A DNA stretch of 20,058 bases, taken from the IMG/VR virus record IMGVR_UViG_3300027773_000095, positions 1-20,058 of that record; one strand, written 5' to 3'. Source of the stretch: a virus. The notes under the pieces are model-generated. The model ran no database searches. It saw nothing but the letters and a program-made list of their open reading frames with translations, and was not told the DNA's origin. Both the position numbers and the translations under genes were made by a program. This document shows, in pieces, positions 7,975 to 19,933 of the stretch (its first letter is position 1; every line of letters starts with the position of its first letter).

Positions 7975-8873
7975 GCTTGTCTCCTTTCGGTCAGGATTTG
8001 CCGGGCAACCGCCCGCGCTCGCTCGTGGGTTCTTTGCTCGTGCTCCTGGATCAGCTGGCGAACGAGATCGGCCTCGGTGGAGACACCGTCCACCAGCCCG
8101 GCGTCAATCGCCTTGCTGCCCAGGAAAATCCGCCCATCGGCCATCTTATCGAGCACCGTCTCCACATCCGTGCCGCGATGCCGCGCCACTTCGTTCACGA
8201 ACACGCTGTACACGTGATCCACCTGTTCCTGAATCGCGGCGCGCGCCTCGTCGTCGAGCGGCTTGTGCTCGCTGGCGATCCGCTTGTACTTCCCAGCGGT
8301 GATTTCGGTGGTCTTCACTCCGCGCATCTCCTCGGCTTTGCTGATGTCCGTGTGCGTGGCCACGACGCCGATGCTGCCCACCTGCGTCGTCTCGCCGGTG
8401 ATCAACACGCGGTCGGCGGCGCTGCTAATCCAGTACGCGGCGCTGGCCATCATCCCGTTCGCAAGAGCTACGACGGGCTTCCTGCCCCGCGCGTCGTAAA
8501 TCGCCCGCGCCAGCTCGAACACGCCGTCCACGTTCCCGCCTGGGCTGTCCACGCTCAGCAGGATCGAGTGCGCCCGGTCATCGGCAAGCGCGGCCTTGAA
8601 GTCACGCTCCACAAGTTGCGTGCTCACGCCGCCGCTGACGCGCGTGAACAGGTTCATGCGCTTGGCGATCACGCCCTCGACGGCCAAGACCGCGACGCCA
8701 TCCACGACCTCGTAGCCCTGCTTCTGGTTATTGAGCGGCTGACCCAGGCGCGCTTCGATGGCGCGCAAATCAATCTTTTCGCCCCGAAGGTGCGTGAAGT
8801 AGATTTCGCGGATCTCCAACAGCTTCTCCGGCACGATGGCCCAAGGCGCGTTGAGCACGTCAAGCAGCCGCAT
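7956..8873 (-). CDS. Prohead protease, S49 (SppA/ClpP-like) family, lambda gpC-like
   Basis: A 305-residue serine peptidase. The family signatures are VDSPGGNVDG (about 108-117), the nucleophile segment ANGMMASAAYWISSAADRV with Ser144, TTQVGSIGVV (163-171), and a lysine in AGKYKRIASEHKP (Lys195 or Lys197), the expected Ser-Lys dyad. It processes scaffold and portal during prohead maturation. The ATG at 8873 overlaps the end of the portal gene and has AGAGGAG seven bases upstream. The last residues are basic and it lacks the long fused scaffold domain of lambda gpC. Confidence 0.92.
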   Translation of the reverse strand: MRLLDVLNAPWAIVPEKLLEIREIYFTHLRGEKIDLRAIEARLGQPLNNQKQGYEVVDGVAVLAVEGVIAKRMNLFTRVSGGVSTQLVERDFKAALADDRAHSILLSVDSPGGNVDGVFELARAIYDARGRKPVVALANGMMASAAYWISSAADRVLITGETTQVGSIGVVATHTDISKAEEMRGVKTTEITAGKYKRIASEHKPLDDEARAAIQEQVDHVYSVFVNEVARHRGTDVETVLDKMADGRIFLGSKAIDAGLVDGVSTEADLVRQLIQEHEQRTHERARAVARQILTERRQAWKAKR

Positions 8874-10464
8874 CTTCGCGCTCCTCTGTTTCGCGATCTG
8901 CGCTGCGTTCCGGTTGCGGTTGCTGCGGATTGCCAGGGCCGGGCATCTTCACCACGACGAGGCCGTCGCGCTCGCGCATCCGGCGCTCTTTCACCTGTTC
9001 GCGGTGCTTGTCCTTCCACACGCCGCCGGTGAGCTGCATCGTCTCTTCGGCCAACGTGCTGACACCGATCTCCAGACGCTTTGCGGCAGCGTCCACTTCC
9101 TTCGTCGGGTCAATCTGCGCGGGTGCGTCGCCGATCCAGTCCGCTTGCAGGTAGGCGATGCGACGCGCCGGATCGTCGAAGAATCCTGGCGCGGCAATGC
9201 GGCCAAGCGCGACAGCTTCTTCCATCCACGCCTCGTACACGGGCGCGCAGAAGGTCTGCGCCAGGAACTCCCGCCGCAACCGGAAGAATTTCCACGCTTC
9301 CATCAGCGCCGCGCGCGCCGCGCTGTAGCTGGCCGTGAAATGCTTGATCAGCACCTCGAAGGGCAGGCCCAGCGCGACGCCGATCTGCCGCAGGACCGAC
9401 TGCACGAACGGGTCGAAGGCCGTGTTCGGGCGGTTGGGGCTCACCGTCGTAATGTCCTCGCCGGGAGCCAGGTCCACGATGGTGCCTGTCCCCAGCCGGA
9501 TCTCCGCGTTGCTCGATGACACTGCGGGGTCGCCTGCCGGGGGCGCAAAGCCGTCGCCCGATTCCGATTTGACGAACACGGTCAGCAGCGAAGCCACGAC
9601 AGCGGCCATCAGTTCCGACTCGGTGTACTTGTCCAACTGCTTCAGCGGCTCGATGACGGGAGCCAGGTAGGGCACGCCGCGCGTCTGGCCGGGGCGCGTG
9701 CGCTCGAAGATGTGCAGCAGGTTGCGGCGGCCCGTTCGCGCGCCAAAGGCGGGCACGCGGATAAAGTCCTGCTTGATTCCTTCCGGGCTGCCGGGATGGT
9801 TGCGCAGGATGTGATAAGCCACGGGCGCGCCGTTCGCGTCCATCTCGACGCCCACGACGATCTTGTTGCCCGCGTTCTCCTTCTTGCCCGTGGGCGTCTC
9901 CACGCGGTCGGCTTCCACCACCTGCACGCGCAGCGCGTAGGGGTTCGTGCGGCTCTCGATCATCGGCAGCAGCACGAAGGCGTCGCCGCTTTCAAGCGCC
10001 GAGCGGAAGACTAGGCTTTGCAGGCCGTAGAAACTCTGTGTGCGGGTCACGTCGCACTCCGCCGATTCGGCCCACACGCGAAACTCGCGCTCAACCTGGG
10101 CCGTCCACTGGTCGGCCTGCTCCTCGGTCATGCCCAGGGCTTCCCAATCGGGGCGGGGCAGGAGGCTCAGGCCCGTGCCCACCACGTTCATGACCACGGT
10201 GTTGACCGCGCCCGTGGCCAGCGGCGCGTTGCGCACCATGTCACGGCTGCGGGCGCGGAGCGTCTCCAGATCGAACAGCGTGTCCTCGTCGGCGCTGGCG
10301 GGCGTAACGAACCAGTCCTTGAGCGACCGCCGCGTGTAGCTGGCTCCTGTCCAGCTACCGGCAATGGCCATCACCATCCGCGCGCGCATCCGCCGTGCCG
10401 CCCACGCGGGCGAGAAGTAGCCCACGGCCCGGTCAAGCCAGTTCGGTTGTGCGAGTGTGTTCAC
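8860..10464 (-). CDS. Portal protein (lambda gpB family)
   Basis: I place the start at the GTG at 10464 (MNTLAQPNWLDRAVGYFSPAWAARR), overlapping the gpW stop as GTGA. The product is then 534 residues against 533 in lambda gpB. An upstream in-frame extension is Arg-rich shadow of gpW. Family hallmarks include RARSRDMVRNAPLATGAVNTVVMNVVGTGL, then GVPYLAPVIEPLKQLDKYTESELMAAVVAS, and FDPFVQSVLRQIGVALGLPFEVLIKHFTASYSAARAALMEAW. It forms the 12-subunit DNA channel at one capsid vertex. The C-terminus is a charged Pro/Gln/Glu tail. Confidence 0.93.
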   Translation of the reverse strand: MNTLAQPNWLDRAVGYFSPAWAARRMRARMVMAIAGSWTGASYTRRSLKDWFVTPASADEDTLFDLETLRARSRDMVRNAPLATGAVNTVVMNVVGTGLSLLPRPDWEALGMTEEQADQWTAQVEREFRVWAESAECDVTRTQSFYGLQSLVFRSALESGDAFVLLPMIESRTNPYALRVQVVEADRVETPTGKKENAGNKIVVGVEMDANGAPVAYHILRNHPGSPEGIKQDFIRVPAFGARTGRRNLLHIFERTRPGQTRGVPYLAPVIEPLKQLDKYTESELMAAVVASLLTVFVKSESGDGFAPPAGDPAVSSSNAEIRLGTGTIVDLAPGEDITTVSPNRPNTAFDPFVQSVLRQIGVALGLPFEVLIKHFTASYSAARAALMEAWKFFRLRREFLAQTFCAPVYEAWMEEAVALGRIAAPGFFDDPARRIAYLQADWIGDAPAQIDPTKEVDAAAKRLEIGVSTLAEETMQLTGGVWKDKHREQVKERRMRERDGLVVVKMPGPGNPQQPQPERSADRETEEREDAAA

Positions 10465-10682
10465 CTGATCGGCACCACCGCGCCGCGCGCCCTTACGCCG
10501 CCGCGCGCCAGCTGCTTCACCATCTGCTGCCAGTAGCGAATGTTTTCGCGGATCACTGCTGCGTCCGCGCGCGTGAACGTGCGGCCGCCAAGCGAGTACG
10601 CCTGTCCCTTGGCGACTGCCGAGTCGGCGGTCAGCCACTCGTTCAGGTGCTGCTCCGCTTGTGCGAGCGTCAGTCCCGCCAT
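10461..10682 (-). CDS. Head-tail connector gpW-like
   Basis: A 73-residue protein (lambda gpW has 68) starting MAGLTLAQAEQHLNEWLTAD. It has the family layout of an N-terminal helix, a short hairpin (GQAYSLGGRTFTR) and a second helix (ADAAVIRENIRYWQQMVKQL). gpW binds under the portal after packaging and retains DNA. Its 3' end overlaps the portal start. The 5' end of this gene is partly duplicated in decayed form about 280 bases upstream. Confidence 0.9.
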   Translation of the reverse strand: MAGLTLAQAEQHLNEWLTADSAVAKGQAYSLGGRTFTRADAAVIRENIRYWQQMVKQLARGGVRARGAVVPIR

Positions 10683-10805
10683 AACGGGCCGGAGTATGCA
10701 GACACCTCTAGGTGTTCGTCAATTGTCTTGGTGAATAGGACAGGTCAGGACGGTAATCTGCGGAGTCAGATTGTCGTTTCCGGTTGTCAGTCGCGTCAGG
10801 GTTGC
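10640..10805. repeat. Imperfect direct repeat, copy A (gpW 5' end and upstream)
   Basis: Copy A contains the gpW start region (GGTGCTGCTCCGCTTG, GAGCGTCAG), GGAGTATGC, GTCAATTGTCTTGG, GGACAGGTCAG and GGTTGTCAGTCGCGTCAGG on the plus strand. The same blocks occur in the same order in copy B at about 10922-11070, with small indels. Boundaries are approximate and identity was judged by eye. Confidence 0.6.
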
Positions 10806-11038
10806 ATCAATTTCGGCCAGCGTGAACGCGCCCATGACGCGGATATATAGGCACACTTTGGGGAGTACCCACAATACGGTGGTTGGTGCGATAAACTTTG
10901 GCGCAATGGTCCACGCGCCGGTAAGGTGCTGTTCCGCTGGGTGAGCGTCAGCCCGGTATGACGCATCGGAGCATGCGTCAATTGTCTCGGCTGGCCGGAC
11001 AGCTCGGTTGGGTAAAGGTGGCGATTAAGCAGGCGGTG
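10683..11038. other. Intergenic stretch with decayed partial duplication, no intact gene
   Basis: This 356-base stretch between gpW and the metal cassette has no convincing gene. It is less GC-biased than the phage genes and holds two related hairpins. One is ACACCT-CT-AGGTGT at 10702-10715. The other is TGACGCAT-6 nt-ATGCGTCA at 10959-10980. Each is followed by TCAATTGTCT. A 60-codon minus-strand frame across 10796-10981 includes a degraded gpW N-terminus (TGLTLTQ) and is best read as a remnant. Confidence 0.6.
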
Positions 11039-11070
11039 TCACGTGCCAGTTGTCAGCGCGGTTAGGCCAT
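10922..11070. repeat. Imperfect direct repeat, copy B (gpW remnant reaching into metallochaperone 3' end)
   Basis: Plus-strand blocks GGTGCTGTTCCGCTGG, GAGCGTCAG, GGAGCATGC, GTCAATTGTCTCGG, GGACAGCTCGG and AGTTGTCAGCGCGGTTAGG parallel copy A. On the minus strand the first part encodes a frameshifted version of the gpW N-terminus. The last part encodes the final residues and stop of the CopZ-like gene, so that gene's end seems to have been built on the duplicated phage DNA. Confidence 0.55.
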
Positions 11071-11515
11071 TCTTGATGACCTTGGTTACATTCCCCAGGC
11101 AGCACTTGCCAGATGGGTTTTTGATTTCGCAAGCGCACCTTCCGGCCTGAACTTCCGCCTTGATTTTTTCGGCGATGATAGACTTGCCCTCATGCCGGAT
11201 TTCGTCCTGAATGTCCTTCCGGGTGAAGCCGAAGCAGTAGCAAACGGGGATCGGATCGGCTTTCTCCTTCAGGCCGACCCTCACCCAGAGGTCAGCGCGG
11301 CGAAAAAGCGGGGCGTTCGGGTCAGCCCCGAAATAGACCACATCGCAAGCCGGATCGTCGCAGAAGTAGTAGGCCGTGGACGGCATGGCCAGCGGAAGTT
11401 GCCGAAGGAGGCTGCGCAGCGTGAGCAATTCGACTTGTTTGGACCGCCTGCCGCTCACCGGGCAGGCCATCACCGCGGGCCAGTTCTTCTGCTTTACCTC
11501 GCAGCATTCGCTCAT
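11039..11515 (-). CDS. CopZ-like iron-sulfur/zinc metallochaperone
   Basis: A 158-residue Cys-rich protein with cysteines at 4, 5, 18, 52, 57, 92, 94, 127, 129, 138 and 139. YYFCDDPACDVVYFG (49-63), a DLWVRVGLKE segment and VCYCFGFTRKDI (91-102) followed by RCACEIKNPSGKCCLG (126-141) match the N-terminal part of Archaeoglobus CopZ-type proteins. That part carries a zinc site and a BFD-like [2Fe-2S] cluster and delivers or reduces copper. There is no fused HMA domain. That domain is instead at the end of the neighbouring MerT-MerP protein. The ATG is 7 bases after the upstream stop, so the genes are co-transcribed. Metal specificity (Cu or Hg) is unproven. Confidence 0.82.
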   Translation of the reverse strand: MSECCEVKQKNWPAVMACPVSGRRSKQVELLTLRSLLRQLPLAMPSTAYYFCDDPACDVVYFGADPNAPLFRRADLWVRVGLKEKADPIPVCYCFGFTRKDIQDEIRHEGKSIIAEKIKAEVQAGRCACEIKNPSGKCCLGNVTKVIKNGLTALTTGT

Positions 11516-11522
11516 GATGGCC

Positions 11523-12122
11523 TCAAAGTGTCGCCTTGAATCCAGCTTTGCTGACCGCTTCGATCAATTGCGTCGTCGAAGCCTTGGAAGGATCGTATTG
11601 AACCGTCGCGCGGCCCGCCTTGAAGTCCACGGAAGCCGAAGCTACGCCGGGCGTTTCGAGCAGGGCATTGCGCACGCCGACGGCACAGCCCTCGCAAGTC
11701 ATCCCGCTGACTTTCAACTCAACTGTGGAAAGCTGGGCGGGCGCGGATCGAGCGGCAGGGCTCTGCCGGGGTTTATCCAAAGCCGCGCGCAACGGCGCGT
11801 AGTAGTAGGGAAAGGTGACCAGTGCCAGGACAACAACCGCAGCAATCCACAGGAGCGGTCGTCCCCAGCGCGCTGCCCTCGGTGTCTCGCACACTTGGCC
11901 ATCGCACGGGGCTGCCTGCTTTGGCTTTCGGTAGGCAAAGTAGAAGCCCAGCCCGAGGAAGATGGCGGTCAAAGCGAGGAAGTAGGGTCGTAACGGTGCA
12001 AACTGCTGCGCAGCGGTCACCGCTCCAATCCCGAGTCCCGCCAGCACAACCGGGCCGATGCAACAGATCGAGGCGACCACGGCAGCGCCAATGGCTCCGA
12101 AAATTCCCACTTTTTCATTCAT
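11523..12122 (-). CDS. merTP: MerT-MerP fusion, mercuric-ion-type transporter
   Basis: With the ATG at 12122 (GGAGG five bases upstream) the protein has 199 residues. Three membrane helices are visible near 8-33, 47-64 and 90-108. The first has the MerT vicinal Cys20-Cys21 pair (SICCIGPVV), and a cytoplasmic loop holds Cys73 and Cys78. A linker of about 20 residues leads to a MerP/HMA domain with GMTCEGC (Cys143, Cys146). In known MerT and MerP, the HMA domain passes Hg(II) to MerT for import to a cytoplasmic reductase. No merA is present here. The gene lies 26 bases after the CsoR-like gene and just before the CopZ-like gene, so copper handling is an alternative. Confidence 0.88.
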   Translation of the reverse strand: MNEKVGIFGAIGAAVVASICCIGPVVLAGLGIGAVTAAQQFAPLRPYFLALTAIFLGLGFYFAYRKPKQAAPCDGQVCETPRAARWGRPLLWIAAVVVLALVTFPYYYAPLRAALDKPRQSPAARSAPAQLSTVELKVSGMTCEGCAVGVRNALLETPGVASASVDFKAGRATVQYDPSKASTTQLIEAVSKAGFKATL

Positions 12123-12148
12123 GTTTTCCTCCGCAAGAAGGGAATCGC

Positions 12149-12460
12149 TCACTGCATCTTCAGCACCTGGGCCAGCGCCCCCTTCAGACGATCCAGCGCC
12201 TTGCTTCCCTTGCCAGAGCGCACGGCGTCCGCCACGCAGGTCTCCAGGTGGTTTTCCAGCAGCCGGGCCTGCACTTGATTTAAGGCCGAGCGAATGGCGG
12301 CGATCTGGAGAAGCAGATCCTCGCAGGTTCCGTGCTCGGAGAGCATCCGCTTGACGCCGCGCACGTGGCCCTCGATCCGGCTCAGACGGTCTTCCAGCTC
12401 CTTCTGGACTTCTGGGTCGAGGTAGACACGGGGAAGGCAGAGCGCAGCAGGTTTCGGCAT
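12149..12460 (-). CDS. CsoR/RcnR-family metal-sensing repressor
   Basis: A 103-residue all-helical protein with the family segment DRLSRIEGHVRGVKRMLSE (24-42). Cys46, His71 and Cys75 have the same 25- and 4-residue spacing as the Cu(I) ligands of Mycobacterium CsoR (Cys36, His61, Cys65), so the site looks like a copper CsoR rather than nickel RcnR or the sulfide sensor CstR. Such proteins are tetrameric repressors released from DNA by metal binding. The ATG at 12460 overlaps a G/C-tract palindrome that also contains its Shine-Dalgarno, indicating autoregulation of the whole cassette. It replaces the MerR regulator usual in mer operons. Confidence 0.9.
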   Translation of the reverse strand: MPKPAALCLPRVYLDPEVQKELEDRLSRIEGHVRGVKRMLSEHGTCEDLLLQIAAIRSALNQVQARLLENHLETCVADAVRSGKGSKALDRLKGALAQVLKMQ

Positions 12461-12478
12461 ATCCCCTCCAGGGGGATA
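12460..12478 (-). promoter_or_regulatory. Putative CsoR-type operator overlapping the regulator start
   Basis: The plus strand reads TATCCCC-TCCAG-GGGGATA, a perfect 7-bp inverted repeat with a 5-base centre. A/T ends around G/C tracts are typical of CsoR/RcnR operators. On the minus strand it contains the GGAGGGG Shine-Dalgarno and touches the ATG. A repressor bound here would block the start of the three-gene cassette. Confidence 0.65.
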
Positions 12479-12507
12479 GGATGCATCAGGGCAAGGTTGA
12501 GTTGCAA
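12478..12507 (-). promoter_or_regulatory. Possible sigma70-type promoter of the metal cassette
   Basis: On the minus strand TTGCAA (12507-12502) could be a -35 box, followed after 18 bases by CATCCT (12483-12478), or a slightly shifted TCCTAT, as a weak -10. This would put the operator palindrome at or just after the -10. It is the only spot between the TerL stop and the regulator start where a promoter can sit. The -10 match is poor. Confidence 0.3.
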
Positions 12508-12546: not shown

Positions 12547-14517
12547 CTACAGGACTCCCGCGCTTCGCACGCGCCGCATCTTGGCCGCCAGAGTCTCAGG
12601 TGCGCGTCCTTGCCGTACCGCTTCGGCTAGTTTGCCAAGGTCGCGGTAAGTCGCCGGTGCGATGAGGTTTTGTAGCGCGAATAAGGCGGCGTGGCAATAC
12701 ACGGTCAGGTCCAGCGCCTCGTTCCGGCTGTAGGTCTTGACGTATAGCACCTTCTTCGTGCGCGTGCGTTTGTCGCGCACGGTTATCTTCTTCTCGCCAG
12801 TCAGTTGCTCCAAGTATTCATTGGTCACCCAGTCGGGCAGGTGCATGTAGCCGGGGCCGGGCCGGGGAATTTTCATTCGCGCGAAAACGCGATCTTTGGC
12901 GGCGTAGGTGGCCACGGCGAAGAGGCGAATATTGCTGCGCTTGGTCGAGCCTTCCTGCACCAGTCCCGGTTTGCTCAGGTAGTCCACGCCCTTGCAGGCG
13001 AAGATGCGGCGGCGGGTGTGCTGGCGCGGCAGCACGTAGTCATACACGCTGTCGGCGTGTGCGCCGGCGTCCACCAGCACAATCGCCGGGGTCAACACGG
13101 CTCCCTTCGGATGGGGCCACTGCTTCAGCAGGAATTGATCCAGCTGCTCCCACACGTTGACCGCCGTCTCGGGATCAACGTCAACGCCGGGATCGCCCCA
13201 GAAAACCTCATGGGCAATGAGCCAGGATTCTTCGCCGGGGCCGAAGCCCACGATCTGCGCCTCGATGCGGTTGTGCTGCACGTCCGCTGCTGCTGTCAGT
13301 ACGCACACACCTTCTGGGACAGGCGCGGGATATTTCTCACGACGCGCTGCCAGCACGTGCGCGCCGAAACTCTCGCCGCCTTCATCCCACGTTTCGCCAA
13401 GCCGCAGGTTGATGAACGCCTTCAGCTTCTCTGGGTTGTCCTGGGCCTCAACCCATTCCTGAGCGAGCTCGTGCCAGATGAGGCGCCACGGACTGTAAAG
13501 CGCGTTGATATGGAAACCCACCACCTTGCGGCGCTCAGGAAACTTGGCCTTCCAGCGCCCGCCATCGAGCATTCGCTGTTTGTACTTTTCATCTATGCCC
13601 TTTCCGCAGGTGGGATTGGCACAGAGATAGCGCACCGTCTCCGGGATGGGGTTCCCGTTTGCGTCCTTTTCCCACACCAGGCGGTGCACGCCGTTTTCAT
13701 CGCGCCAGCAGAGCACCTGCATGTGTCCGCAGAACGGGCAGGGCACGAAGTAGCGCATCTGATTGCTGCGCTCGTAGTCGGCTTCGATGCGCGATAGGCC
13801 CTTGGGCTTGCCGGGCGTGCTGCCCTTGAGAATCTTCGCGTCGTCGAACGTGTCCGTGCGCCGCGTGGCGATCTCGACCGGATCACCTTCGCCGTCCACG
13901 TCGTCCGGGTAGCCGTCCACTTCATCGAGCAGCAGGATGGCGATGGGATCGGAGCGCAGGCCCGCACCCGCGTTCGCGCCGGTGATCTTCAGGAAGCCGC
14001 CGTCAAATTCCTTGAGCAGCATGGAATTGCCGGGCCGCCGCGACGTGGCCTCGCGCACTTTGGCCTTGAGCGCGGGGCACGCGGCGATCATCGGCGCGAT
14101 ACGCTTGCGGCTGTACTCTTTGGCCGTGTGGTCGGTGGGCTGCACCAGCAGGATGGGCTTGGGGTCAGCGTCAATGAAGTAGCCCACGATATTGTTCAGC
14201 ACGCCGTCGCTCCAGCCAACCTGAGTGCTTTTCATGCAGACGATTTCGCGCACCTCGGGATTGAGGATGGCGTCCATCATCTCGCGCTGGAAGGATTCAG
14301 TGGCCCACTGCCCAGGGCGGGCGCTGGTGCCTTTAGGAAGGATACGGTTGCGCTCGGCCCACTCGCTGACCTTCAGCGTCGGCGGCGGAGCCAGCAGTTG
14401 CCGCGCCAGGCGGCCCCTGGCCGTGCGAATCCGGGCCAGCGGTTCCCCGAGATGGCCGTCGGCCTGCTGGAAGGGTTGATCGCTCCTTAGTTGGCTTGCG
14501 CCCTGTCCTCGCGACAT
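12547..14517 (-). CDS. Terminase large subunit (lambda gpA family)
   Basis: With the ATG at 14517 (MSRGQGASQLRSDQ) the protein has 656 residues (lambda gpA 641). It has the packaging ATPase motifs: a deviant Walker A KSTQVGWS (96-103), Walker B ILLLDEVDGYP (194-204) and motif III KGSTPG (231-236). A four-cysteine pair CPFC (260-263) and CANPTC (299-304) looks like a zinc knuckle. The C-terminal nuclease region begins near LTAAADVQHNRIEAQIVGFG, with LVDAGAHADSVYDYV later. It pumps and cuts phage DNA. An in-frame extension to 14589 has other ATGs but no better Shine-Dalgarno, so the start is uncertain. Unusually, it is separated from TerS by an opposed restriction-modification pair and from gpW by the metal cassette. 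Confidence 0.93.
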   Translation of the reverse strand: MSRGQGASQLRSDQPFQQADGHLGEPLARIRTARGRLARQLLAPPPTLKVSEWAERNRILPKGTSARPGQWATESFQREMMDAILNPEVREIVCMKSTQVGWSDGVLNNIVGYFIDADPKPILLVQPTDHTAKEYSRKRIAPMIAACPALKAKVREATSRRPGNSMLLKEFDGGFLKITGANAGAGLRSDPIAILLLDEVDGYPDDVDGEGDPVEIATRRTDTFDDAKILKGSTPGKPKGLSRIEADYERSNQMRYFVPCPFCGHMQVLCWRDENGVHRLVWEKDANGNPIPETVRYLCANPTCGKGIDEKYKQRMLDGGRWKAKFPERRKVVGFHINALYSPWRLIWHELAQEWVEAQDNPEKLKAFINLRLGETWDEGGESFGAHVLAARREKYPAPVPEGVCVLTAAADVQHNRIEAQIVGFGPGEESWLIAHEVFWGDPGVDVDPETAVNVWEQLDQFLLKQWPHPKGAVLTPAIVLVDAGAHADSVYDYVLPRQHTRRRIFACKGVDYLSKPGLVQEGSTKRSNIRLFAVATYAAKDRVFARMKIPRPGPGYMHLPDWVTNEYLEQLTGEKKITVRDKRTRTKKVLYVKTYSRNEALDLTVYCHAALFALQNLIAPATYRDLGKLAEAVRQGRAPETLAAKMRRVRSAGVL

Positions 14518-14654
14518 AGGGCTCAAAATGTGGCACACGGCAGTCTTCGGCTTCAACACACATTTGGAGGGAGCGCCCATCAAACACAAGTGGATGATCT
14601 TAGTTAGAGCTTTCAGCCGCTGCCGGTTGGCGATAAAATCCTACGTGCGGCCCT
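14518..14654. promoter_or_regulatory. Divergent intergenic region between TerL and the methyltransferase
   Basis: About 137 bases separate the chosen TerL start from the methyltransferase ATG, and any promoters for both directions must lie here or upstream of the neighbours. A GATAAAAT at about 14631-14638 on the plus strand resembles a -10 box for the methyltransferase, with no clear -35. No controller-protein gene or obvious C-box repeat was found. Confidence 0.3.
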
Positions 14655-15632
14655 ATGCGAAAAGCCCTGATGAACCGCTCGCTATTCGACGAGCCGAAAA
14701 TTGTCAGTTCATTCGACGGTCAAGAAGCAATCGTTCTGCACTGTGGAGATGCCCTTGAGTTCCTGAAGGGGCTGCCGAATGGCTTGGTGTCTTTGGTACT
14801 GACCTCGCCGCCCTACAACCTGGGCAAAGCCTACGAACGGAAGCGCGCCTTGGAAATCTACCTGCAAGAGCAAGCCAAAGTGATAACCGAACTGGTGCGC
14901 GTGGTGACGGACGACGGGAGCATCTGTTGGGAAGTCGGCAACTATGTTGAGGATGGCGAGGTCGTCCCGCTGGACATCCTCTTCTACGAAATTTTCAAAA
15001 GGCACGGGCTTCAGCTTAGGAACCGGATCATCTGGCACTTCGGGCACGGCCTTCACGCCTCGCGGCGCTTTTCAGGGCGCTACGAGACAATCTTGTGGTT
15101 CACCAAGACCGATCAGTACGTCTTCAATCTGGACACCGTCAGGGTGCCTTCAAAGTACCCTGGAAAGACGCACTACAAAGGGCCAAACAGGGGCAAGCCA
15201 TCAGGCAACCCGCTGGGGAAGAACCCCTCCGACGTGTGGGAGGTCTTGCAACAGGATTGGGAGCATGGACTGTGGGACATTCCCAACGTGAAGGCGAACC
15301 ATCCCGAGAAAACGATTCACCCCTGCCAGTTTCCGGTTGAGCTTGTGGAACGGTGTGTCCTGGCGCTCACCGATGAGGGCGATTGGGTGATGGACCCGTA
15401 TGCCGGCGTCGGTTCAACGCTGATTGCGGGGCTGAAGCACCGGCGCAGGGTGATCGGCTGCGAGAAGGAAGCCGAGTACGTGACGGTCGCCAGGGACAGG
15501 CTCGAGCAGTTCTGTGCTGGCAAGCTGAAGATCCGGAAGCTGGGCACGCCTGTCTATCAACCTACGGGGCGGGAGAAGGTATCGCAGCGGCCACGTGATT
15601 GGGATGCGGGAAACGGCGACAGCGAGCAATGA
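14655..15632 (+). CDS. Type II DNA methyltransferase, TSPPY class (BstYI/BglII-type partner)
   Basis: A 325-residue methyltransferase with the permuted motif order: catalytic motif IV LTSPPYNLGKAY (49-60) first, then the SAM-binding motif I MDPYAGVGSTLIAGL (246-260). TSPPY is most common in N4-cytosine methyltransferases, although some N6-adenine enzymes share it. ATG codons at 14655 and 14670 are both possible, and neither has a strong Shine-Dalgarno. The stop overlaps the endonuclease start as ATGA. It would protect RGATCY or AGATCT sites from its partner, and inserted between TerS and TerL it would also mark the phage DNA. The specificity is inferred from the partner. Confidence 0.9.
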   Translation: MRKALMNRSLFDEPKIVSSFDGQEAIVLHCGDALEFLKGLPNGLVSLVLTSPPYNLGKAYERKRALEIYLQEQAKVITELVRVVTDDGSICWEVGNYVEDGEVVPLDILFYEIFKRHGLQLRNRIIWHFGHGLHASRRFSGRYETILWFTKTDQYVFNLDTVRVPSKYPGKTHYKGPNRGKPSGNPLGKNPSDVWEVLQQDWEHGLWDIPNVKANHPEKTIHPCQFPVELVERCVLALTDEGDWVMDPYAGVGSTLIAGLKHRRRVIGCEKEAEYVTVARDRLEQFCAGKLKIRKLGTPVYQPTGREKVSQRPRDWDAGNGDSEQ

Positions 15633-16198
15633 TCATCGCGGGGATTTATTCATTCAAGGGTGGGCGGGAGTATGTGGACGCCCACTATCCCGACCTGCGC
15701 AAGGAGATCGAGCAGGTGATTGCTTCCGTTTCTGCAAGGAAGCATCTGACGAAAAAAAGCAAAGAAAAAACCATGCGTGGGAGGATGCTCTACAACCCAC
15801 GCGCGCTCAACAAGGCCTTCAAGAAAGAGTTTGCACGCAGAGGCTGGAAAGCTGTGAAGATCCCCTGCGAATACCCCCAAGAGTTCTATGTCGGGGGCTA
15901 TGCCCCGCGTGCTACCAACAAGGGAGCATTCCGGGAGATGGACTTCGTCAAGGAAAAACTTGGTGTCGAAGTTCAGTTCGGCAAGTACGCCTTCATGGTC
16001 TACAACGTCTGCGCGAAGATGACGATTTTCAGGAACCAAGGGCACATTGAGGCAGGCGTCGAGATCGTGCCGATGAAGCAGTTCGCAGACCAGATGTCCA
16101 CCGGGGTTTCCTACTTTGAGCAGATCGTTTGGGACTTGGAGCACCGTGGCGTCGCGGACATAGATGTTCCGGCCCTGATCATCGGGATCGACGCCTAA
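15629..16198 (+). CDS. Type II restriction endonuclease, BstYI/BglII-like
   Basis: A 189-residue endonuclease starting at the ATG at 15629 that overlaps the methyltransferase stop. The sequence closely parallels BstYI as I remember it: an N-terminal YS..G.EY motif, TKKSKEKT (41-48), then ILY-P-ALN-AFK-like GRMLYNPRALNKAFKKE, MDFVKEKLGVEVQFGKYAF and GVEIVPMK followed by MSTGVSYFEQ. The catalytic residues of this family are Asp, Glu and Gln (BglII Asp84, Glu93, Gln95). Here they align as Asp105, Glu114 and Gln116 with the same spacing, so the enzyme looks intact. Expected recognition is RGATCY or AGATCT. Codon use is more AT-rich than the phage genes, consistent with recent acquisition. It ends tail-to-tail with TerS, the two stops overlapping by three bases. 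Confidence 0.9.
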   Translation: MIIAGIYSFKGGREYVDAHYPDLRKEIEQVIASVSARKHLTKKSKEKTMRGRMLYNPRALNKAFKKEFARRGWKAVKIPCEYPQEFYVGGYAPRATNKGAFREMDFVKEKLGVEVQFGKYAFMVYNVCAKMTIFRNQGHIEAGVEIVPMKQFADQMSTGVSYFEQIVWDLEHRGVADIDVPALIIGIDA

Positions 16199-16746: not shown

Positions 16747-17298
16747 TCACCCCTGCGGCACCCAGGATTTCCCGAAGTCGGCGCGCTCGCGGCCCACCTG
16801 CTCCGGCATCCCGGCGCGATCTTCCAGCCGCTCGACTTCTTCGTCTTCCATGCCCAGCCGCTGCATGATCTCGGCCTTCTCGACGCCCTCAGCGACCATC
16901 GTGCGGACGATCTCGGCCATCGGCAGAACGGCGTGCGTGCCGCGCGCGCGGTTGTGGCGAATCGTGCTCATCATGCGGTGCACCGGGTCGAGCGCCACCT
17001 TGACCACAGGCACCATGCCGCCATAGAGCTGCATGAGGCGAAGATCGCCGCTGACCAGGTAGCGGTGAAAGCCGTCCACGATGGTGTAGTCGGGCAGCAC
17101 GACGATGGGCTGCGTGAAGCCGTCTTCGAGGATGCTCGTGATCAGCAACTCCAGTTCCGGCGGGGCGACGCGGTTCGGGTTGTAGTGATTCGGCTTCAGC
17201 AGGTCACGATGTACCCACTCGACGCGGCTCACCGGCTCGCGGGCCAGATCGCGCGGCGCGCCCGCCACGACCCGCTCGCTTTTCGCATTCTCCATCAT
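16747..17298 (-). CDS. ParB/sulfiredoxin-fold protein, IbrB-like
   Basis: From the ATG at 17298 the protein has 183 residues. A ParB N-terminal-type domain spans about 28-110: LLKPNHYNPNRV, a helix with LITSILEDGFTQPIVVLPDYTIVDGFHRYLVS and then the strand PVVKVAL. The nucleotide-binding motif is DGFHR (75-79), in place of the GHxR of classical ParB. C-terminal helices carry a possible helix-turn-helix (IVRTMVAEGVEKAEIMQRLGMEDEEV). Next to a PAPS-reductase-fold gene this recalls the IbrA/IbrB pair of E. coli, regulators of prophage genes. A TTG at 17325 inside the upstream gene is an alternative start. Confidence 0.82.
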   Translation of the reverse strand: MMENAKSERVVAGAPRDLAREPVSRVEWVHRDLLKPNHYNPNRVAPPELELLITSILEDGFTQPIVVLPDYTIVDGFHRYLVSGDLRLMQLYGGMVPVVKVALDPVHRMMSTIRHNRARGTHAVLPMAEIVRTMVAEGVEKAEIMQRLGMEDEEVERLEDRAGMPEQVGRERADFGKSWVPQG

Positions 17299-17302
17299 CG
17301 GC

Positions 17303-18487
17303 TCAATACCTCGTGCCCAGGTCAAGCTCGGTTACGTCGGCGATGCTGACGCCGGCCTTCTTCCTCGCCTGCGTCGCATGGCTGTTCATCGTGCGACTGC
17401 GGCGGCCCTTCAGGTCGCCGCGATTGACCACCATCGCCAGAAACTTCCAACTGAGGCCGGTGAGCAGATCGGGCTGCTCCTCAGGAACGGGCCTGCTGGT
17501 CTTAGTCTTGTGCTCGCGCAGGAGCATCACCAGGTTCTTGGCGATGGCCGCCTTCAGTTCCATTGGGTAGAGATCGAGCAGCCGGTACGTCCACTCGCGC
17601 CAGGTCAGGCCCGGCGGCTTCTCGATCTTTCCGTAGCCGTATAGCTCGGTGTTCGCGTAGCGGCCCGCCGTGGCCGCGCCGTGCACGCGCTTGATCATCT
17701 TGTGCCAGAGGTCGGGCCAGCACTGCGCGTAAATCCAGAGGCCCGAGAGCGGCTCCTCGCCGTAGGGCGGGCAGACGCGCTGGTCGCTCAGCGGCATCCC
17801 CGCTTTCTGCATCAGGTCGTAGGCGCGGTTGTAGTCCCAGCCGAAGCGCTTGGGCGCGACCCAGACGTCGAACGTCGTCCAGTCGTAGATCGGGCTGACC
17901 GGGTAGCTGTAACCTTCGCGCGGGTTGCCGATCCAGTTGTCGCGCAGCTTCATGGCCACGCTGCGATACCGGCGCAGCGACTCGTCGGCGCGGATGCCAC
18001 GAATGTCGGCCACGGTGCCATGCTCCTTGCCGTAGACCAAGTGCGCCAGCTCGGGGATACCCATGCCCCACTCGAAGCCGGGCAATTCGGTGATCGCGCC
18101 TTCCGGCATCGGGCGCACCCAGAGGTGTCTCTCCGCCGGGTTCCAGCAATGCCAGTAGGGCTGTTTGCGGCTGCAAGCGTTTCTGTGGCGCACGGGGATG
18201 CAGAGCCATTTCAGGCGCACATCCGGGCGCTGGGCCACGCGCGCTACGTACTCGATGGTCTCCGGGTGAATCGCTTCTTCGTCCCAGAAGTACACATCGA
18301 GCGGCGTGCGGCCAAGCTCGCGGGCGACCTGCAAAGCCAGGTTGAGGCAGACCGTCGAGTCCTTGCCGCCGCTGAAGCTGACCACGACGGTGTCGAACCG
18401 CTCGTAGCACTCGCGGATGCGGCGCAGCGCCGCCGCGTACACATCTTCCTCGACCAGCTGCTTCTTGTAGATTCGCGTCCTGGCCAC
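17303..18487 (-). CDS. PAPS-reductase-fold ATP pyrophosphatase, IbrA-like (DUF3440-type)
   Basis: I chose the GTG at 18487, with GAGG upstream, because the longer frame merely overlaps the cupin gene. The product is 394 residues. The adenylation P-loop VVVSFSGGKDSTVCLNLALQ lies at 34-53. Downstream are DVYFWDEEAIHPETIEYV, a Cys/His-rich WLCIPVRHRNACSRKQPYWHCWNP, GIRADESLRR, SPIYDWTTFDVW and CPPYGEEP. These are the layout of PAPS-reductase-like proteins of the IbrA family rather than true assimilatory reductases. DndC and related DNA-sulfur enzymes share this fold. Substrate is unknown. It could adenylate a nucleotide, base or sulfur carrier. Confidence 0.85.
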   Translation of the reverse strand: MARTRIYKKQLVEEDVYAAALRRIRECYERFDTVVVSFSGGKDSTVCLNLALQVARELGRTPLDVYFWDEEAIHPETIEYVARVAQRPDVRLKWLCIPVRHRNACSRKQPYWHCWNPAERHLWVRPMPEGAITELPGFEWGMGIPELAHLVYGKEHGTVADIRGIRADESLRRYRSVAMKLRDNWIGNPREGYSYPVSPIYDWTTFDVWVAPKRFGWDYNRAYDLMQKAGMPLSDQRVCPPYGEEPLSGLWIYAQCWPDLWHKMIKRVHGAATAGRYANTELYGYGKIEKPPGLTWREWTYRLLDLYPMELKAAIAKNLVMLLREHKTKTSRPVPEEQPDLLTGLSWKFLAMVVNRGDLKGRRSRTMNSHATQARKKAGVSIADVTELDLGTRY

Positions 18488-18498
18488 GCCCGCCTCAG

Positions 18499-19200
18499 CT
18501 ACCTGGTTCGGATTTCTTCGATCTCCGACGCGCTTACACCGTTGACCATGGTGCGGTTGATCATCGGGTGCTTCTCGTCGGTCGGCCCGAAGTCGCTGTC
18601 CGGGTGATACGCCAGCACGCGCATGTCTTCGCCGTAGGGCGTGCGGAAGCTGTGCAGCCCGCCCGTATGAATGCAGAAGATCATGCCGGGCACCAGGGCA
18701 ATCTCGCCGTCCGGCGTAATGCACTGGCCGCGCCCGGAAAGGATCATCCCGATGCGGTCGCTCGGATGTGTGTGCTGCGTCTGGTCAATTCCGGCAGGAA
18801 AGTAGAGCAGGTTCAGGCACGGGTCGCCCAGGCGCACGGGCGGGATCAGCAGGCTGTCCGTGCACCCGTCAACGTACTTCAGCCGCCCCGTGTGCTCGGC
18901 AGGCCCGCCGATGTGGAAGAACCCCTGCCAGTTCTCGCGCGTCACGACAATGCCCTTCCCATTGCCCAGCAGCCGGAAAGCGCCGGGCACGCTGAAGTAC
19001 ATGCCGGGATGCAGGTGGAAGACGCGGCCATCCTTGAGCAGAATCGGCTGGCCTTCATGCACGTAGCCGAAGTGCGTGCCGGCGTCGTCCTCGACCACCA
19101 GCGCCTGGTCGGGCACAAAGGCGCTCAAATAGCTGGGAAACTCTCGGTCCAGGTCAGCGATCTTGCCGTGCTGCCAGCTGAAGTGGCTAAAACTTCTCAT
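18499..19200 (-). CDS. Cupin-domain protein
   Basis: A 233-residue bicupin-like protein. The second half holds the cupin core: HTHPSDRIGMILSGRG (143-158) supplying His143 and His145, and PGMIFCIHTGGLHSF (171-185) supplying His183. The first half (YVHEGQPILLKDGRVFHLHPGMYFSVPG) looks like a degenerate cupin. The usual motif-1 glutamate is replaced by Arg149 in my alignment, so the metal site is altered or uses another residue. The ATG overlaps the end of the upstream ParB gene by 14 bases with a GGAGG before it, and the IbrA-like gene starts 11 bases after its stop. Sugar-nucleotide, small-ligand or oxygenase roles are all possible. Confidence 0.82.
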   Translation of the reverse strand: MRSFSHFSWQHGKIADLDREFPSYLSAFVPDQALVVEDDAGTHFGYVHEGQPILLKDGRVFHLHPGMYFSVPGAFRLLGNGKGIVVTRENWQGFFHIGGPAEHTGRLKYVDGCTDSLLIPPVRLGDPCLNLLYFPAGIDQTQHTHPSDRIGMILSGRGQCITPDGEIALVPGMIFCIHTGGLHSFRTPYGEDMRVLAYHPDSDFGPTDEKHPMINRTMVNGVSASEIEEIRTR

Positions 19201-19873
19201 CGTGTTCCTCCAGGTAGAGTTCGCAGATGTGGAACAGCGCGTCGCCGCGCCGCTCCAATCGTTCCCGCTGCTTCGCCAGTTGTATGGCCGCGTTCACCAC
19301 GTTGCGCTGCTCGAACGACAGCACCTCGCTGAACGTCACCAGCGGATTCCCATCGTCCTGGCCGCCGTCGCCGGGCGTGCCGACAACCTGGACGGCTTCA
19401 AGGGATTCGTCGTCCTCGCCGGCCTCAGCGCCCGCGATCCTCTCCAGCGCCGACTCGTCCAGATCGTCCGCGATGCGCTTAAGGTCGTCCTCGGTGAAGC
19501 CGGCCTGCCCGACGAGCTGCACGTCCAGGCCGCGCAATTCCTCGATCTCCTGAGCCAGCAGGCCAATGTCCCAATCGCTGTCGCGGTTCGTGCGGTTGTC
19601 GGCCAGCCGCAGCGCCTTCACTTTCTCCGGCGCAAGATTCCCCGCGACCACCACAGGCACCTGCTTCGCTTCGAGCAGCTTCGCCGCCTCCAGCCGTCCG
19701 TGGCCGATGATGATCACGAACTCCTTGTCCACCACGATGGGCTGCTGCCAGCCGAATGCAGCGATGGAGTCCGCGATCTTGCGGATCGAGTCCTCGCTGC
19801 GACTGCGCGGGTTGCGCCAGTAGGGCTTCAGCTTCTCGATTCCGGCCCACTGCACCTTCACCGGACACCCCAT
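19187..19873 (-). CDS. ParB-like nuclease/CTPase-domain protein
   Basis: From the ATG at 19873 the protein has 228 residues. A TTG at 19906 would add 11. The ParB N-terminal domain covers about 5-100: LKPYWRNPRSRSEDSIRKIADSIAAFGWQQPIVV, then IIGHGRLEAAKLL with the classical GHxR motif (57-60), then ALRLADNRTNRDSDW. An acidic linker and a C-terminal basic/helical part follow. ParB-domain proteins of this type are common just upstream of phage terminases, often fused to DNA methyltransferases. Here no methyltransferase is fused. It heads the operon leading into the cupin, IbrA-like, IbrB-like and TerS genes. Confidence 0.87.
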   Translation of the reverse strand: MGCPVKVQWAGIEKLKPYWRNPRSRSEDSIRKIADSIAAFGWQQPIVVDKEFVIIIGHGRLEAAKLLEAKQVPVVVAGNLAPEKVKALRLADNRTNRDSDWDIGLLAQEIEELRGLDVQLVGQAGFTEDDLKRIADDLDESALERIAGAEAGEDDESLEAVQVVGTPGDGGQDDGNPLVTFSEVLSFEQRNVVNAAIQLAKQRERLERRGDALFHICELYLEEHDEKF

Positions 19874-19933
19874 TTCGCTTTCTGGCGGGGTCTCCGCGCA
19901 GGCCAAAAGTGCACGAAAGCCGCATCAAGACTA

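Follow-up and report, generated by a model that had tools for sequence, protein, structure and literature searches.

The window analysed here, a 20,058-base virus record that is a fragment of a viral contig, contains a three-gene metal-handling cassette at 11039-12478, on the minus strand and hence on the same strand as the head genes. The initial annotation had placed CsoR, MerT-MerP fusion and CopZ-like genes here in this orientation, and coordinates and family matches confirm the place and strand. The relevant features are as follows.

8860-10638, minus strand: lambda-family portal protein (PF05136, E = 2.4e-114)
10461-10682, minus strand: head-tail adaptor gene (DUF6148, PHROG 118)
10693-10722, minus strand: promoter-like element TTGACG-18-CATACT with the palindrome ACACCTAGAGGTGT in its spacer, conserved in sister phages; downstream border of the slot that holds the cassette
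10763-10912, minus strand: remnant of a second adaptor type, leader plus first codons, MGAFTLAEIDATL; intact in the sister phages L006 and L012
10904-11003 (ends approximate), minus strand: second copy of the adaptor leader, decayed, with the frame-shifted beginning of a DUF6148-type adaptor gene; direct repeat 10717-10756 / 10976-11015
11039-11515, minus strand: CopZ N-terminal-domain [2Fe-2S]/zinc metallochaperone (NF047645)
11523-12152, minus strand: MerT-like membrane protein with a C-terminal HMA domain (GMTCEGC; PF02411, E = 2.4e-16; PF00403, E = 1.6e-17)
12149-12460, minus strand: csoR, CsoR-family metal-sensing repressor (PF02583, E = 1.9e-24)
12460-12478, minus strand: predicted CsoR-type operator TATCCCCCTGGAGGGGATA
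12478-12507, minus strand: candidate weak cassette promoter TTGCAA-18-CATCCT
12547-14589, minus strand: TerL, terminase large subunit (PF05876, E = 5.6e-76; PF20454, E = 2.5e-82); upstream border of the slot
14655-15632, plus strand: DNA methylase, between TerS and TerL
15599-16198, plus strand: BglII-like endonuclease, between TerS and TerL

The csoR product has the PF02583 fold and the Cys-His-Cys ligand set of the CsoR family; in an alignment, the candidate metal ligands Cys46, His71 and Cys75 match in position those of the solved CsoR 4m1p, and the second-shell Tyr and Glu of the Cu(I) type are apparently missing. For the MerT-HMA protein, the top NCBIfam model is MerTP_fusion (E = 2e-37), to which it is related without being a member by the curated equivalog rule (NF033556; 128.6 bits versus a cut-off of 180), and its cysteine pair CC30-31 and Cys83 are invariant in six homologues. 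The third protein belongs to CopZ_Nterm_CC (NF047645), scoring 138.8 bits against a curated cut-off of 100, and its nearest solved relative is the homologous N-terminal domain of Archaeoglobus fulgidus CopZ (2hu9, E = 6.8e-16), with which it shares the VCYC and NPSGxCC cysteine motifs. Unlike that domain, the phage protein stands alone and lacks the second cysteine of the N-terminal CPxC motif, so that its zinc site may differ.

The predicted operator, a 19-base palindrome, spans the csoR ribosome-binding site and start codon. The chromosomal locus L038 has the same palindrome, unchanged, in front of csoR; the L206 version differs from it by two bases, and L039 retains its right half only. The candidate promoter upstream of it was recognized by eye and was not called by the promoter scan.

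As read from their sequences, the cassette parts would suit sensing, import and chaperoning of a soft metal, Hg or Cu, with a sink supplied by the host, and metal handling is a likely role. The cassette resembles merRTPA mercury-resistance operons in its MerT-type membrane protein and HMA metal-binding domain, but it has a CsoR-type instead of a MerR-type regulator, it lacks MerA, and an Fe-S/zinc CopZ-like protein replaces the free periplasmic MerP. No MerA-type reductase was matched among the window frames searched, and no merA, lyase, exporter or efflux pump, or separate MerP was found in the 20,058 bases. The term metal resistance, used in the initial annotation, thus exceeds the evidence, and any benefit would depend on a host sink.

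To delimit the insertion we used TerL, which retrieved 36 viral loci, nine of which (81–94% TerL protein identity) cover the interval from border to border: L002, L004, L005, L006, L007, L008, L011, L012 and L034, the portal of L004 lying off the contig end but its adaptor leader being present. None of these nine sister phages carries the cassette, and the earlier view of a foreign, self-regulated unit with its own operator is supported. Foreign origin, control of its own and absence from relatives mark the cassette as a moron; a further mark of a moron would be expression from the integrated prophage to the advantage of the lysogen. The TerL-adaptor interval is nearly empty in two sisters (73 bp in L008 and 62 bp in L034) and spans 1.2–2.4 kb in the other seven, all with different cargo, and tblastx detected no similarity among the seven inserts and that of the window. 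The cargo of L007 (10005-12284) encodes a KAP NTPase, a PifA-like exclusion protein (E = 1.2e-77), that of L006 (2978-4711) a HerA-like ATPase and that of L012 a TPR protein; profile searches gave no clear match for the remaining sister inserts. Cargo frames occur in both orientations. Among more distant relatives, L030 (1285-3008) has an insert with an NsnA/GmrSD protein and a HEPN protein, and L167, in an Acidobacteriota-group genome, one with dCTP-deaminase-like and trypsin-like proteins.

The aligned flanks of the slot are about 75–91% identical, mostly above 83%, and downstream of it the window is collinear with L002 for 6.8 kb and with L007 for 5.6 kb, indicating that turnover is concentrated at the TerL-adaptor junction. 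Unrelated genes thus alternate at a single site flanked by conserved core genes, and anti-phage systems are among them as judged by profile matches only (PifA-like in L007, HerA-like in L006 and NsnA-like in the distant L030). With the junction nearly empty or filled by unrelated cargo in nine sisters, the site is a cargo hotspot of which the metal operon is one occupant. The initial annotation was right to place the insertion between TerL and the adaptor, but the event was not a one-off: most close relatives hold different cargo in this turnover slot, some of it anti-phage. Of the terminase-gpW flanks originally named, TerL stands, whereas the adaptor matches DUF6148 and PHROG 118 and no lambda gpW family by name.

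Immediately before the adaptor gene, the downstream border element consists, in order, of ACAATTGAC, the palindrome ACACCTnnAGGTGT and CATACT. Homology resumes at this element in the window, L002, L004, L005, L007, L008 and L011; L034 retains only part of it, and L006 and L012, which have the other adaptor type, have a similar but different leader. The element is conserved across sisters with differing cargo and occurs as a single copy in the sequence searched, where a scan for sigma-70-like promoters found one against 0.4 expected. Its sequence suggests a sigma-70-like promoter whose spacer contains an operator-like palindrome, and the downstream head genes appear to have their own promoter. 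The adaptor-portal unit would begin at this element, and the head genes could thus escape silencing by inserts.

Positions 10720-11003, which separate the cassette from the adaptor gene, hold what is left, in decayed form, of the starts of two further adaptor genes, with a second ACAATTGAC copy at 10985 within the decayed leader. These remnants may record a series of exchanges. Two alternative head-tail adaptor types, both in PHROG 118, occupy this one locus among the phages (second type at 4898-5140 in L006 and 2906-3148 in L012), and remnants of each are present at 10763-11003 of the window.

A second cargo lies nearby: the genes at 14655-16198 form a BglII-type restriction-modification pair between TerS and TerL, which are directly joined in L002, L003, L005, L007 and L008. 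The ten-base GGAACCGCTG is found twice at the TerS-TerL joint in most of these five phages and once at each edge of the insert in the window. AGATCT occurs once in the window against 2.8 sites expected, a difference that is not significant. Upstream of TerS, 16747-19906 contains two ParB-like genes, a phosphoadenosine-phosphosulfate-reductase-like gene (17303-18724) and a cupin gene (18499-19200).

The closest chromosomal counterpart of the cassette is L206, found in genome G456 by looking within the order of the L038 genome, which carries the whole trio in the same order with 71.4% identity over 1414 bp. The Acidobacteriota operons L206, L038 and L039 share the csoR-merT/HMA-copZ arrangement with the phage, together with an identical or near-identical operator in L038 and L206. 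They differ from the phage copy, which lies between packaging genes, stops in the last copZ codons and lacks the MerP-like genes that follow the trio on the L206 contig. Similarity between phage and L206 fades in those last copZ codons, which locates the right join there. In the MerT-HMA tree the window lies beside L206 (87/88), within a seven-row clade (99/96), one member of which is a Terriglobia contig. Identities at codon positions 1/2/3 are 86/94/44% for CsoR, 77/87/38% for MerT-HMA and 80/82/47% for CopZ, a pattern of purifying selection that will in part have operated on chromosomes. The L038 contig is titled Bacillota, probably by mistake, because the L038 genome belongs to the same order as the Terriglobia genome that holds L039 and the two loci have similar neighbourhoods.

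CopZ-family genes occur in 40 of 396 sampled Acidobacteriota genomes, and related TerL genes, at 63% and 58%, were found in genomes of this phylum, a suggestive result from a TerL search that covered Acidobacteriota alone. The TerL relatives and the CopZ-family genes together make an Acidobacteriota host likely, short of proof. A literature search on CsoR-MerT operons in Acidobacteria returned nothing. Plasmid origin of the cassette was rejected, there being no plasmid match at blastn sensitivity, as was carriage by a transposon, with no inverted repeats around the cassette and no transposase seen inside it. A single phage contig with the cassette is known: searches of viral contigs with each of the three proteins for close relatives, which could miss distant ones, found it in no other contig, and a search of phage records with the CopZ-like protein identified no other phage carrying it.

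We propose, with a probability of roughly 0.7, that a chromosomal metal operon of Acidobacteriota type was captured as one block into a recurrent cargo slot of a lambda-like phage, where it constitutes a moron. A block of about 1.45 kb, comprising the operator, csoR, merT-HMA and copZ-N, would have been taken up between TerL and the adaptor-portal unit. Metal-free CsoR would occupy the operator and block expression until a soft metal, Cu(I) or Hg(II), bound at Cys46/His71/Cys75 and released it. MerT-HMA would then move the metal across the inner membrane by means of its cysteine pairs, and the CopZ-like Fe-S/zinc protein would buffer it and hand it over to a host sink, which may be a chromosomal reductase, an exporter or a cuproenzyme. 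Being controlled by metal and not by phage development, the cassette would be active during residence of the phage genome in the cell and would benefit the carrier.

The MerT and HMA domains would also be expected if the cassette were mercury-resistance cargo proper, detoxifying Hg(II) for the lysogen, and in L106 a CopZ-like gene adjoins MerP, the probable end of a MerA-like reductase and a MerR-type regulator, as judged by eye from translations. This is nevertheless unlikely, because the window is devoid of reductase, lyase and exporter, its regulator is of the CsoR type, and the chromosomal operons L038 and L039, inspected by eye, have no reductase beside the trio. Moreover, MerT in the absence of MerA is expected to increase mercury uptake. 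An importer with no sink is compatible with metal accumulation, and import and loading of metal might harm competing phages, an anti-phage function in keeping with the defence-like genes in the same slot of sister and distant phages (PifA, HerA-like, and NsnA/GmrSD with HEPN in L030). We regard such a function as very improbable, since on chromosomes these three genes form an ordinary operon, several further occupants of the slot gave no match to defence genes, and no mechanism of this kind is known.

The adaptor remnants at 10720-11003 could instead be a sign of a decaying element and would then count against capture into a cargo slot: the cassette would be a host operon beside or inside a decaying chromosomal prophage. 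No integration or lysis genes were identified in the fragment record, which agrees with decay and also leaves the term prophage, as originally applied, without an integration gene to back it in this 20-kb contig fragment. However, TerS, TerL, adaptor and portal all have intact reading frames, and sister viral contigs carry other cargo at the same junction between conserved flanks, making decay a rather improbable explanation. That the cassette is found on a single contig and that operons like it are common on chromosomes would also fit an assembly chimera between a phage contig and an Acidobacteriota chromosome, but this would need two independent false joins exactly at the borders of a slot that is filled in seven sisters. 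The nearest known chromosomal copy has 71% identity, short of a near-identical match, and the adaptor remnants derive from phage, so we give a chimera hardly any credence. Capture of a chromosomal operon into a recurrent slot is thus the reading we prefer.

Antiviral hotspots of P2 and P4 phages are loci of about 1–5 kb that lie between a pair of conserved phage genes and show a high turnover of genes (PMC9122126), and the slot described here resembles them as a small, high-turnover locus flanked by conserved phage genes. It differs from those hotspots (gpA-gpQ and psu-int) in phage group, in its TerL-adaptor site and in its metal-operon cargo. While swapping slots were already known in phages, metal cargo in such a slot looks unusual, and a survey of metal-contaminated groundwater reported just one metal-resistance gene on a viral genome (PMC11128244). 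We tentatively raise the possibility that slots serving as defence reservoirs also trade operons for environmental fitness and that a conserved promoter-operator insulates the head genes, in which case the packaging cluster might be a general landing site for host operons. The presence of a metal-homeostasis operon in a slot that sisters use for anti-phage genes suggests that such slots trade more than defence, and the promoter-like element that closes the slot offers a testable reason why the packaging cluster accepts inserts in both orientations.
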